From the NCBI GenBank assembly GCA_021648195.1, contig JAKITG010000004.1:1-32573 (forward strand): a stretch of 32,573 nucleotides of DNA. Reading direction: 5' to 3'. The notes under the pieces were generated by a model that was not told where the DNA came from, did no database searches, and was given only the letters and a program-made list of their open reading frames with translations. This DNA is from Flavobacteriaceae bacterium. GTDB taxonomy: Bacteria > Bacteroidota > Bacteroidia > Flavobacteriales > Flavobacteriaceae. This document shows positions 11,844-15,523 of this stretch, one piece after another (within the stretch, counting starts at the first letter, position 1; every line of letters starts with the position of its first letter). The position numbers and the translations under genes were made by a program.

Positions 11844-13241
11844 CTATATTTTTTCTGCCAACTCTAAAGCTGTTTTTAAGGCTCTTAATTTATTATACAC
11901 TTCTTGCAATTCATTTTCGGCAGTAGATTTGGCTACAATACCTGCTCCTGCCTGATAAAATAATCGATGATTTTTACTTAAAAAAGATCGAATAATAATT
12001 GCATGATTAAAATTACCTTCAAAATCCATAAATCCAATAGCACCTCCATAAAAAGCTCTATTTGTTGTTTCATATTTTTCTATCAACTGCATGGCTTTAT
12101 GTTTGGGTGCTCCAGATAAAGTTCCTGCAGGGAAAGTATCGGCAACAATTTGAAATGTGATAGCATCTTTATATTTCTTACCAACAACTTTAGATACCAA
12201 ATGAATTACATGCGAAAAAAACTGAATTTCTTTATAATTTTCAATTTGAACATCATATCCATTTCTGCTCAAATCATTTCTAGCCAAATCTACCAACATT
12301 ACATGTTCGGCATTTTCTTTTTCATCATTTGTAAGTAATTTTGCAACTTCTAAATCTTTTTCATCATTTCCTGTACGCTTAAAAGTACCTGCTATAGGAT
12401 GAATTTCAGCCTTACCTTTATTAACTACTAATTGAGCTTCGGGAGAAGAACCAAAAATTTTGAAATTTCCATAATCAAAATAAAATAAATATGGTGACGG
12501 GTTTATTGACCGTAAGGCTCTATATACATTAAATTCGTCTCCTTTAAATCCTTGAGAAAATCGTCGCGATAAAACCAATTGAAAAACATCTCCTCTAAAA
12601 CAATGTTTTTTTCCTAATTCAACAAACTCTTTAAACTCTTGATCTGTTAAGTTAGAAGCTTCATCTGTACAATTGGAATAAGAATAAGATGCAAAATTTT
12701 TATTCTCAATTAGTTGAATAATTTCATCAATATTACTTTCATTCTCATAACAATGGGAAAAAATATGTGCTTCGTTTTTAAAATGATTTATTGCAATAAT
12801 ATTTTGATAAACGGCATAATAAATATCTGGAATTTCAACATCATTTTCCTTTTTTCGAATTGAGACATCTTCAAAATATTGTACTGCATCATAATTTATA
12901 TAACCAAACAAGCCATTATTAATAAATTTGAAATCTTGATTTTCTGTATCAAATTTCTGACTAAAATCATGAATAACTTTAGGAATACTGGTTTCACTTG
13001 TTATTTCGGTTTTTTTATTCTTCCCATCAGGAAATGACTCTAATATTTTACCAGTATTTATTGTAATACTAGCAATAGGGTTACAACAGATATATGAAAA
13101 ACTGTTTTCATTTCCATGATAATCAGAACTTTCTAACAGAATGCTATTAGGGTATTTATCTCTAATTTTTAAGTAAATACTAACGGGTGTTATTGTATCT
13201 GCTAGTATTTTTTTAGAATATGTTTTTAATTTATAATTCAT
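11844..13241 (-). CDS. trpE: Anthranilate synthase component I
   Basis: A 465-residue chorismate-utilising enzyme that makes anthranilate from chorismate with ammonia from TrpG. The N-terminal LLESSDYHGNENSFSYI contains the LLES motif that binds tryptophan for feedback inhibition. The catalytic part shows SSPEAQLVV, HPIAGTFKRTG, LVDLARNDLSRNG, FPAGTLSGAPKHKAM and YQAGAGIVAKS. It is the first enzyme gene of the operon. Upstream lie a terminator-antiterminator leader and the Trp-rich peptide trpL, so expression is likely set by attenuation plus feedback on the enzyme. Confidence 0.96.
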   Translation of the reverse strand: MNYKLKTYSKKILADTITPVSIYLKIRDKYPNSILLESSDYHGNENSFSYICCNPIASITINTGKILESFPDGKNKKTEITSETSIPKVIHDFSQKFDTENQDFKFINNGLFGYINYDAVQYFEDVSIRKKENDVEIPDIYYAVYQNIIAINHFKNEAHIFSHCYENESNIDEIIQLIENKNFASYSYSNCTDEASNLTDQEFKEFVELGKKHCFRGDVFQLVLSRRFSQGFKGDEFNVYRALRSINPSPYLFYFDYGNFKIFGSSPEAQLVVNKGKAEIHPIAGTFKRTGNDEKDLEVAKLLTNDEKENAEHVMLVDLARNDLSRNGYDVQIENYKEIQFFSHVIHLVSKVVGKKYKDAITFQIVADTFPAGTLSGAPKHKAMQLIEKYETTNRAFYGGAIGFMDFEGNFNHAIIIRSFLSKNHRLFYQAGAGIVAKSTAENELQEVYNKLRALKTALELAEKI

Positions 13242-13281: not shown

Positions 13282-13303
13282 ATGCTGAAATAGAATTCAG
13301 CAT
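13282..13303. other. Small hairpin between attenuator and trpE
   Basis: Perfect 8-bp arms ATGCTGAA and TTCAGCAT enclose six bases. It follows the attenuator terminator in the trp mRNA, with no T-tract. It might stabilise the 5' end of readthrough mRNA; no function is shown. Confidence 0.4.
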
Positions 13304-13308
13304 AAACT

Positions 13309-13339
13309 AAAAAAGGCTTGTCGTGAAGACAAGCCTTTT
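13309..13339 (-). terminator. trp attenuator (intrinsic terminator, 3:4 hairpin)
   Basis: Read on the minus strand, 12-bp perfect arms (AAAAGGCTTGTC and GACAAGCCTTTT) around a 5-nt loop are followed directly by a T6 run (13309-13314, shared with the stem). It lies 27 nt after the trpL stop and 67 nt before trpE. The loop and upper stem contain CTTCAC, which is complementary to GTGAAG at the end of trpL (13364-13369), giving a competing antiterminator. Confidence 0.88.
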
Positions 13340-13388
13340 GATATTATAATATACAAGGTACTACTTCACAAATTTATTTTTTGTAAAG
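13321..13388 (-). promoter_or_regulatory. trp leader: alternative pairings (pause hairpin and antiterminator)
   Basis: Three mutually exclusive helices can be drawn. Helix 1:2 pairs CTTTAC (13383-13388, just after the Trp codons) with GTGAAG (13364-13369). Helix 2:3 pairs TTGTGAAG (13364-13371, spanning the trpL stop) with CTTCACGA (13321-13328), eight pairs including one G-U, helped by CCTT/AAGG. Helix 3:4 is the terminator. A ribosome stalled at the Trp codons would cover strand 1 and free strand 2 to form the antiterminator; one reaching the stop would cover strand 2 and allow termination. Confidence 0.75.
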
Positions 13389-13422
13389 ACCACCACCAAG
13401 TATTTAATTTTTGTATTTTCAT
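13366..13422 (-). CDS. trpL: trp operon leader peptide (18 aa, three consecutive Trp)
   Basis: ATG to TGA encodes MKIQKLNTWWWSLQKINL. Three consecutive TGG codons are very unlikely by chance in AT-rich non-coding DNA, and they are followed at the correct distance by an attenuator terminator and trpE. The ATG lies only about 12 bp after the -7 box, so the transcript has almost no 5' untranslated region. The peptide itself probably has no function; its translation senses charged tRNA-Trp. Confidence 0.88.
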   Translation of the reverse strand: MKIQKLNTWWWSLQKINL

Positions 13423-13433
13423 ATTTATGTCAG

Positions 13434-13463
13434 CAAATTTATAAAAAAAAATTAATTATCAAA
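13434..13463 (-). promoter_or_regulatory. trp operon promoter (TTTG-N18-TAAATTTG)
   Basis: On the minus strand a -33 TTTG (13460-13463) and -7 TAAATTTG (13434-13441) are 18 bp apart and match the Bacteroidota housekeeping promoter. The start site would fall near 13428, about six bases before the trpL ATG. Confidence 0.75.
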
Positions 13464-13529: not shown

Positions 13530-14555
13530 TTACGGAACCAATTGTACTTCTTTCCAAGCTGTTCCATTATGAAAATATAACTTATTATCTGTTCCAACAT
13601 ACAAATCGCCTAAAGCTCCAGAAGGTGCTGTAGCTTGTGCTTCTAAACGCATCACTCCATTAATATGCACTTTTTGTTGAGGTGAAGTTGTACCAATACC
13701 AATATTTCCGTTAAAATAAGAATCGGCATCAGAAAGAGAATAAATTGAAAAATTTTCAGATGTCCCTTTATTAAAAGACCCGTCAATATATATTGCATAA
13801 CTATTCGCTACAGTTCCAGTACCTAAATATTGAAAAACCAACCCATTTACCTCACCTATAGTTCCATCATTTCTAACAACACTTCTAAATCCAGCACCAT
13901 AATTTAAAGTTCCTGAATTATTTAACTCAGACCATACTCCAGCACCCTCGGCTACAGTTCCAATATTAACTAATTCTGAATAGCTACTCATAGCATTATT
14001 AAGAGTTCCTCCAACATTTGAGTTTTCAGCAAAACTTACCGTTCCGATGGCATAATCAATAGTTGCACTGCTACTATTTTTAGCAAATGCAGCCAATGCA
14101 TAGGTAGAAACATTCGTGCCTGTACCTTCATAAGTTGCATTTATTCTAGTTGCAGTATTTGCCCCATCAGTATCTTTTATACTTTCTACATATAATTTAT
14201 GTGCGCCAGTAGAGAAATTATCTCTTCCAATTCCAACACTACCGTTATAATAGGCAATATTAGAACTTGCTCCATCCACAAACTTTCCTGTTCCACCACC
14301 AGCTTCAACCCAACTAGTATCATTATAGTTCCAAACAGATTTTGTTTCTGTATCATAAACCTGTAAGCCCATTGCTGGACTGACAATAGCAGTTCTTTGA
14401 GCTGTAGTCATTCTTGGCATTAAAAAGCCTTTATCTGTGGCAGTAATATCTAATGCAGCAGATGCATCTGGTGATGTTGTACCAATCCCTACTTGTGCAA
14501 AACTCACACTTGATATGATAAACATTAAAGAAAAGAATTGTATTTTTTTATTCAT
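13530..14555 (-). CDS. Secreted flavobacterial surface protein, GIGTTSP type
   Basis: A 341-residue exported protein with a signal peptide over about residues 1-20. The mature N-terminus VGIGTTSPDASAALDITATDK leads into KGFLMPRMTTAQRTAI and a VYDTETKSVWNYNDTSW segment. A Gly/Ser/Asn/Thr-rich middle (about 100-260) follows, then a second IGIGTTSPQQKVHI and a C-terminal LYVGTDNKLYFHNGTAWKEV. This arrangement recurs in Bacteroidota extracellular proteins and looks like phage tail-fibre-type repeats; function is not established. There is no type IX sorting domain on it. It lies 14 bp after the sorting-domain gene and is probably cotranscribed with it. Confidence 0.8.
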   Translation of the reverse strand: MNKKIQFFSLMFIISSVSFAQVGIGTTSPDASAALDITATDKGFLMPRMTTAQRTAIVSPAMGLQVYDTETKSVWNYNDTSWVEAGGGTGKFVDGASSNIAYYNGSVGIGRDNFSTGAHKLYVESIKDTDGANTATRINATYEGTGTNVSTYALAAFAKNSSSATIDYAIGTVSFAENSNVGGTLNNAMSSYSELVNIGTVAEGAGVWSELNNSGTLNYGAGFRSVVRNDGTIGEVNGLVFQYLGTGTVANSYAIYIDGSFNKGTSENFSIYSLSDADSYFNGNIGIGTTSPQQKVHINGVMRLEAQATAPSGALGDLYVGTDNKLYFHNGTAWKEVQLVP

Positions 14556-14569
14556 AACTATATTAATTT

Positions 14570-15523
14570 TTATTCTATTATTATTTTTTTAACGCCTTGT
14601 TTTCCTTCGTGGCTAAATTTCAATAAATAAACTCCACTTGGTAAATTTGGTTTTTGTAATGTTCCTATTCCATTTTGAATAGATACATTTTGATACAAAC
14701 GTAATTGCCTACCTCTTAGGTCATAAAGTGAAATTTCTAAATTATTTAAATTATTTTCTGATCTGAATTGAATATTATTTTTGCCTGATTTTATAGGGTT
14801 AGAAAGAATACTTATTCCATTAAACAAAAACAAATCATTTACTGTTAAAAGTATTTGATGGTCTATTCCAAAGGTGAATTGAGAAAACCCATTTAAAGCA
14901 ACTTCATTACTTGCATCACTAGTAGTATTCCCTGTTAAAAGATCTCCAGAAACAATATTTGTTCCTACTGCACTTACTAAATTCCATGTACCATTATCGT
15001 TACCAACAATAGCAATAGAATTTAACGCTCCACCATTATCATTCACCAAAGAAGTAATACCACTTGCATTGTTCCATGGTAAAGTTATTATTGCATTTCC
15101 AGTAAGTTTCCAGTATTCTACATTAGAAACTGCATCTACACCTGCTCCATTTGATCCATTGGTTGGTGTGGCATTAAAATACGATCCAACAATGTTTCCT
15201 GTATGATTTGCAAAAACTGGAGCATATACACCATTGTTTCCAACAGGTAATTTTGTTTCTCCATTTCCGTATGCGGTAACTTCTCCATCTACATATTCTT
15301 GTGCAAATCCCCAATCACTACCTGCTTCTACAGAAAATTTTCCAGAAGTATTTACTGTAACTACTGTATTGCTTGTAGTGAAATCTGTATTGCTTTTCAG
15401 GTAAAATTCTGAACTAGCACCTATATATAAGTCTTGAGAAAATGTGTTTTGAACTAAAAGAAAGAAAATAAGAAGAAGAAAGCTTAATTTAATTCCTTTA
15501 AAAATGTGTAAAATTTTTGTCAT
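14570..15523 (-). CDS. Secreted protein with type IX secretion C-terminal sorting domain
   Basis: A 317-residue protein with signal peptide over about residues 1-29. A beta-rich middle (about 30-235) full of Asn, Thr and Gly follows, and the end is a type A sorting domain (about 240-317): ISLYDLRGRQL, then LPSGVYLLKF and a C-terminal KKIIIE. Type IX cargo is moved across the outer membrane by the Por/Spr machinery and often anchored at the surface. Together with the next gene it may form a surface or gliding/adhesion unit; that is inference. A -7-like TAAATTTG sits at 15540-15547, about 17 bp upstream, without a clear -33 element. Confidence 0.88.
   Translation of the reverse strand: MTKILHIFKGIKLSFLLLIFFLLVQNTFSQDLYIGASSEFYLKSNTDFTTSNTVVTVNTSGKFSVEAGSDWGFAQEYVDGEVTAYGNGETKLPVGNNGVYAPVFANHTGNIVGSYFNATPTNGSNGAGVDAVSNVEYWKLTGNAIITLPWNNASGITSLVNDNGGALNSIAIVGNDNGTWNLVSAVGTNIVSGDLLTGNTTSDASNEVALNGFSQFTFGIDHQILLTVNDLFLFNGISILSNPIKSGKNNIQFRSENNLNNLEISLYDLRGRQLRLYQNVSIQNGIGTLQKPNLPSGVYLLKFSHEGKQGVKKIIIE

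Follow-up and report, generated by a model that had tools for sequence, protein, structure and literature searches.

A predicted tryptophan attenuator with a Trp-Trp-Trp leader peptide upstream of the trp operon in a Flavobacteriaceae bacterium

We analysed a 32,573-nucleotide stretch of Flavobacteriaceae DNA (the window) and found that a short region upstream of trpE very probably controls the trp operon by ribosome-mediated transcription attenuation, responding to charged tRNA-Trp. This region is part of a 288-base intergenic stretch of the minus strand, flanked by an upstream gene, which stops at 13530, and by trpE, which starts at 13241, and its coordinates as first given proved exact. NCBIfam matches showed that the genes downstream, in the order trpE-G-D-C-F-B-A, make up the whole trp pathway in a single direction. 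The features are as follows:

13309-13463, minus strand: attenuator
13460..13463, minus strand: -33 promoter element TTTG, read from the sequence, 18 nt upstream of the -7 element
13434..13441, minus strand: -7 promoter element TAAATTTG, read from the sequence (consensus TAHHTTTG)
13428..13429, minus strand: predicted transcription start, placed by F. johnsoniae spacing
13366..13422, minus strand: leader peptide gene, product MKIQKLNTWWWSLQKINL, 18 codons, ATG at 13422, TGA at 13368-13366
13390..13398, minus strand: regulatory codons TGG TGG TGG (Trp9-Trp10-Trp11)
13364..13388, minus strand: 1:2 anti-antiterminator hairpin CTTTACAAA / TTTGTGAAG, 9 bp, 7-nt loop
13364..13371, minus strand: antiterminator strand 2, TTGTGAAG, which contains the stop codon of the leader
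13321..13328, minus strand: antiterminator strand 3, CTTCACGA, in the terminator loop and inner flanks
13309..13339, minus strand: intrinsic terminator AAAAGGCTTGTC-TTCAC-GACAAGCCTTTT with T-run, 12 bp, predicted -16.5 kcal/mol
11844..13241, minus strand: trpE, anthranilate synthase component I (best NCBIfam match TIGR00564, 1.3e-124)
11677-11111, minus strand: trpG (NCBIfam match)
10935-9943, minus strand: trpD (NCBIfam match)
9634-8858, minus strand: trpC (NCBIfam match)
8718-8107, minus strand: trpF (NCBIfam match)
8110-6884, minus strand: trpB (NCBIfam match)
6819-6055, minus strand: trpA (NCBIfam match)

The preliminary description of this DNA had named a promoter, an 18-codon peptide with three adjacent TGG codons (13398-13390) and a competing helix over the leader stop, and all three were found again: the promoter as TTTG (13463-13460) and TAAATTTG (13441-13434), the helix as TTGTGAAG (13371-13364) with CTTCACGA (13328-13321). 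The helix CTTTAC/GTGAAG placed right after the Trp codons is also present and extends to 9 bp instead of 6, with CTTTACAAA (13388-13380) pairing with TTTGTGAAG (13372-13364). Likewise, the 12-bp terminator with six Ts before trpE is there, with arms at 13339-13328 and 13322-13311 and a T-run reaching 13309, and can be refined in that four of the six Ts are part of the stem.

In the mechanism that we propose, transcription start, stalling, pausing and tryptophan response are all predicted from these elements. Transcription would begin 6-7 nt upstream of the leader AUG, and the ribosome would load without Shine-Dalgarno guidance. When Trp-tRNA is scarce, the ribosome would stall at any one of the three TGG codons and cover strand 1 (CTTTACAAA) with its footprint, leaving strand 2 (TTGTGAAG), which lies about 18-26 nt past the last TGG, free to pair with strand 3 (CTTCACGA). 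Because strand 3 overlaps the terminator loop and both inner flanks, the 2:3 pairing would block the terminator and trpE-A would be transcribed. When Trp-tRNA is plentiful, the ribosome would reach the stop codon inside strand 2, the 2:3 pairing would be blocked and the terminator would form. If there is no translation, 1:2 would form, giving termination by default.

A ribosome with any of the TGG codons in its A site is expected to cover up to about 9-12 nt beyond the third one, which would hide strand 1 and leave strand 2 free. When a footprint of this assumed size was masked at TGG1-3, the fold contained 2:3 as long as the polymerase had got no further than the end of strand 3. Removing the mask gave 1:2, and moving the ribosome to the stop codon abolished 2:3. 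In static folds the completed terminator was preferred in every case, even with a stalled ribosome, suggesting that antitermination depends on timing, as the outcome does in E. coli trpL.

To place the element among its relatives, we gathered 99 trpE loci from the genus and from 80 genome contigs, mainly of Flavobacteriaceae, and left out one (L027) that came without upstream DNA, giving 98 loci, 92 of them distinct. The results showed that an ORF with TGGTGGTGG, encoding the WWW leader, stands upstream of trpE in all 98 loci (92 distinct), and that the terminator is present in all 92 distinct ones. In an alignment of 89 sequences, TGGTGGTGG (the TGG TGG TGG run, 89/89), GTGA and most of the terminator are invariant. 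Counted from the last TGG, GTGA follows after 20 nt in 73 loci, after 21 nt in 17 and after 18 nt in one, thus 20-21 in 90 of 91. Where the gap is 20 nt, the peptide ends at the in-frame TGA; a gap of 21 nt changes the frame and delays the stop by a few codons, with the strand staying put, which indicates that it is the RNA geometry and not the stop position that has been preserved.

These results also bear on whether the terminator merely stops transcription of the upstream gene (13530-14555), or acts as a constitutive 5' terminator, beside an incidental Trp-rich ORF. That gene is on the same strand and ends 66 nt before the -33 element, a point in favour of such an explanation. However, a promoter intervenes between gene and terminator, the WWW run, spacing, competing strand and terminator are kept together ahead of trpE in 98/98 loci, and shuffling the 288-base intergenic region 20,000 times with dinucleotides preserved never produced TGGTGGTGG, a comparison that used the Trp-run count alone; we therefore consider it very improbable. 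The 341-aa product of the upstream gene is without a Pfam or NCBIfam match, and the product of the adjoining 14570-15523 carries a C-terminal sorting domain of type IX secretion (PF18962).

The competing helices behind the proposed attenuation were examined one by one. In the 89 sequences 96.7% of the terminator cells are paired, and two pairs are changed on both sides. The six core pairs of 2:3 are retained in 97-100% of sequences and hardly vary, so that covariation is uninformative within the family, and it was seen only at the ends and between families. For 1:2, the best helix per locus scored a mean of 13.7 against 9.2 in shuffles (maximum shuffled mean 9.9), and the mean dG of the hairpin was -5.2 against -1.8, about 3.5 kcal/mol more stable; it is weak in part of the set, with 51 of 91 loci beating 95% of their shuffles. 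Its column counts are low (56%) because the register slides between lineages, from CTTTACAAA/TTTGTGAAG in the window to CTTACG/CGTGAG in Allomuricauda and Flagellimonas and TTTACG/CGTGAA in Flavobacterium. RNAalifold, run on the whole alignment, recovered the terminator only, as expected for alternative structures. An outer helix, which in the Rfam model joins the Trp-codon region to sequence after the leader stop, is present in the predicted fold of the window and has 79.7% of cells paired in the 89 relatives, above all slid controls. We considered the Trp codons themselves as strand 1 and rejected this; the outer helix exists, but it is the hairpin after the Trp run that sequesters strand 2.

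Other families were compared as well. In a more distant one (f11), most loci again have strand 2 about 20 nt beyond the Trp codons, and strand 3 has changed with pairing kept (GTCGTG/CGCGAC, GTCGTA/TGCGAC and GTCGTAAGG/CTTTACGGC); judged from the sequences, these antiterminator differences are compensatory. In a second Flavobacteriales family (f2), a Trp-run leader precedes trpE at 14 of 15 loci, and its WWW leaders (L154-L167) mostly precede a different terminator, AAAGACTTTGACG...CGTTGAAGTCTTT. A comparison of trpE upstream regions, which the preliminary description had proposed, thus bears out its fit to ribosome-mediated attenuation, since the Trp run and competing helices are conserved and the 2:3 differences of f11 compensatory.

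Between the terminator and trpE the loci vary. The window has a palindrome, TGCTGAATTCTATTTCAGCA, at 13283-13302; similar ones occur at the same place in L016, L017, L020 and a few others, and a repeat-family check of the rest of the genome gave only a handful of loose matches. In nine relatives (L041, L045, L048, L061, L062, L091, L097, L100 and L111) this place holds an ORF of 94-101 codons, and the two tested by Pfam are both GIY-YIG nucleases (PF01541). A gene inserted there, after the attenuator, would fall under trp attenuation.

Of 149 family genomes, 93 carry exactly one copy of the terminator signature (0 for a reversed-pattern control), and GGCTTGTC-N-TCACGACAAGC is nearly invariant across these 93 genomes. 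The single copy per genome rules out a terminator shared by several operons. Terminator and strand 3 (13309-13339 in the window) are conserved in the 93 genomes beyond what pairing alone seems to require. Such conservation of primary sequence might point to an RNA that senses tryptophan or a protein directly, as a riboswitch or a TRAP-like target would, rather than through a translating ribosome. We regard this as highly unlikely, because what has been conserved is a reading frame whose three Trp codons keep a fixed distance, T-box and riboswitch families all scored below the Rfam cut-off in the window, and the motif was marked cis-regulatory, not a switch, by Weinberg et al. 2010 (PMC2864571). 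The trp repressor (PF01371) was absent from 22 genomes of the genus in a search positive for the E. coli control, the window's own genome being about 71% complete, and this too speaks against direct sensing. The near-invariant, single-copy sequence would also be accounted for if, besides attenuation, the terminated leader or the peptide acted in trans, for which rnTrpL/peTrpL of Sinorhizobium meliloti are a precedent (PMC7298713). We think this improbable, if somewhat less so than direct sensing: the same bases serve both 2:3 and 3:4, and the overlap of these pairings may be enough to freeze the sequence.

The attenuator belongs to a class that has already been described. It scored 50.7 bits with Rfam RF01692 (Bacteroid-trp), above the gathering cut-off of 49 and over the full model (1-131), and this was the sole Rfam element in the 32.6-kb window, with no match to other Rfam trp-leader families. 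Its location is that of the family, with trpE-G-D-C-F-B-A downstream and Flavobacteriaceae as relatives, and it shares with RF01692 a leader ORF with a Trp run before trp genes in Bacteroidota, an extended hairpin that takes in the Trp codons, and the terminator arm AAAAGGCUUGUC. It differs in scoring near the cut-off, and the model ends at the first terminator arm and is without the 2:3 antiterminator or promoter. RF01692 detected the element in 12 of the 18 genus genomes that carry one, missing 6, and matched one of seven f2 genomes scanned; the WWW attenuators of f2 are thus largely missed by it. The motif has also been noted upstream of the trp operon in a paper on F. psychrophilum elastase (PMC6414381), and a 2021 transcriptome of that species gave strong indications of attenuation by leader peptides ahead of operons for amino-acid biosynthesis (PMC9723704). 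The structured 5' regions of the latter are alike in family, in the type of operon and in the attenuation proposed, and differ in species and in resting on transcriptome-based inference. In the literature searched, which included few subscription journals, we came across no experiment that proves tryptophan-dependent readthrough in Bacteroidota, as the preliminary description had expected. The element is less novel than was suggested there, because RF01692 has a name and attenuation in flavobacteria had already been inferred (PMC9723704; PMC6414381).

We also analysed how the leader would be translated. No SD-like sequence lies ahead of the leader ATG, in agreement with the earlier claim of ribosomes acting without such guidance; a missing Shine-Dalgarno is normal for Bacteroidota, a phylum that uses neither the usual sigma-70 promoter nor the Shine-Dalgarno sequence. 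The promoter follows the consensus TTTG/TANNTTTG, and F. johnsoniae transcripts begin 4-5 nt past TAHHTTTG (PMC6847099). In the window 11 nt separate the TTTG of the -7 element from the leader ATG (13422), which predicts a 5' UTR of 6-7 nt, short and not strictly leaderless. The -7 element stands just 5' of the leader start in 91 of 92 distinct loci, and among these 91 trp leaders the TTTG-to-ATG distance is 5 nt in 32, up to 12 nt in 53 and up to 20 nt in 89, counts that come from related loci and are not independent events. From promoter spacing rather than mapped starts, a 5' UTR of 0-1 nt is predicted in 33 of 91. In f2 the distance is 4-5 nt in 10 of 14 Trp-run leaders, and in f11 it is at least 21 nt. 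As a rough control, 46 genes with the element in a complete genome of the same genus gave a median distance of 30 nt, with 7 of 46 within 12 nt (start codons not curated). Leaders exceed 10 nt in 87% of F. johnsoniae transcripts (PMC6847099), and F. psychrophilum has a median 5' UTR of 24 nt, with 5.5% of transcripts leaderless (PMC9723704). With a gap of exactly 5 nt between -7 element and AUG in 32 of the 91 Flavobacteriaceae loci, and of 4-5 nt in most of those from the second family, we lean slightly towards a trp leader peptide of Flavobacteriales whose transcript is leaderless or nearly so, with SD-free ribosome loading set by the transcript 5' end and tightly timed to RNA polymerase.

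The proposed attenuator resembles E. coli trpL in its tandem-Trp leader peptide, alternative 1:2, 2:3 and 3:4 pairings and control of a trp operon. It differs in having three adjacent TGG codons against two, a leader stop inside strand 2 and a predicted 5' UTR that is very short and without Shine-Dalgarno, and TrpR was not found in its genus. Leaderless trp leader peptides are known from Sinorhizobium meliloti trpL (PMC7298713) and Streptomyces lividans TrpL1, MFAHSTRNWWWTAHPAAH (PMC8079986), so that the principle is not new. In both the start codon is at or near the transcript 5' end, as predicted in the window, and TrpL1 has the same length of 18 with WWW at the identical position. These are different phyla with no sequence homology shown, and the window's UTR is predicted at 6-7 nt, not zero.

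The mechanism itself is textbook and the family catalogued, and the element is an ordinary, well preserved member; the new details are modest. It adds a clean case, with all its parts within 155 bases and kept in close to 100 loci, to a known and apparently experimentally untried family. One new detail is the predicted leader 5' UTR of 6-7 nt in the window and 0-1 nt, predicted leaderless, in a third of the relatives; such a near-end start of the leader gene seems unusual for these bacteria. The other, also modest, is that Rfam RF01692 under-detects such attenuators in Flavobacteriales and largely misses those of f2. The added interest lies in the conserved, predicted near-leaderless start. 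In a phylum with neither the usual sigma-70 promoter nor Shine-Dalgarno, the element would be a compact natural system in which fast ribosome loading on a very short 5' UTR is coupled to control of a terminator, and thus a good model for attenuation without Shine-Dalgarno.
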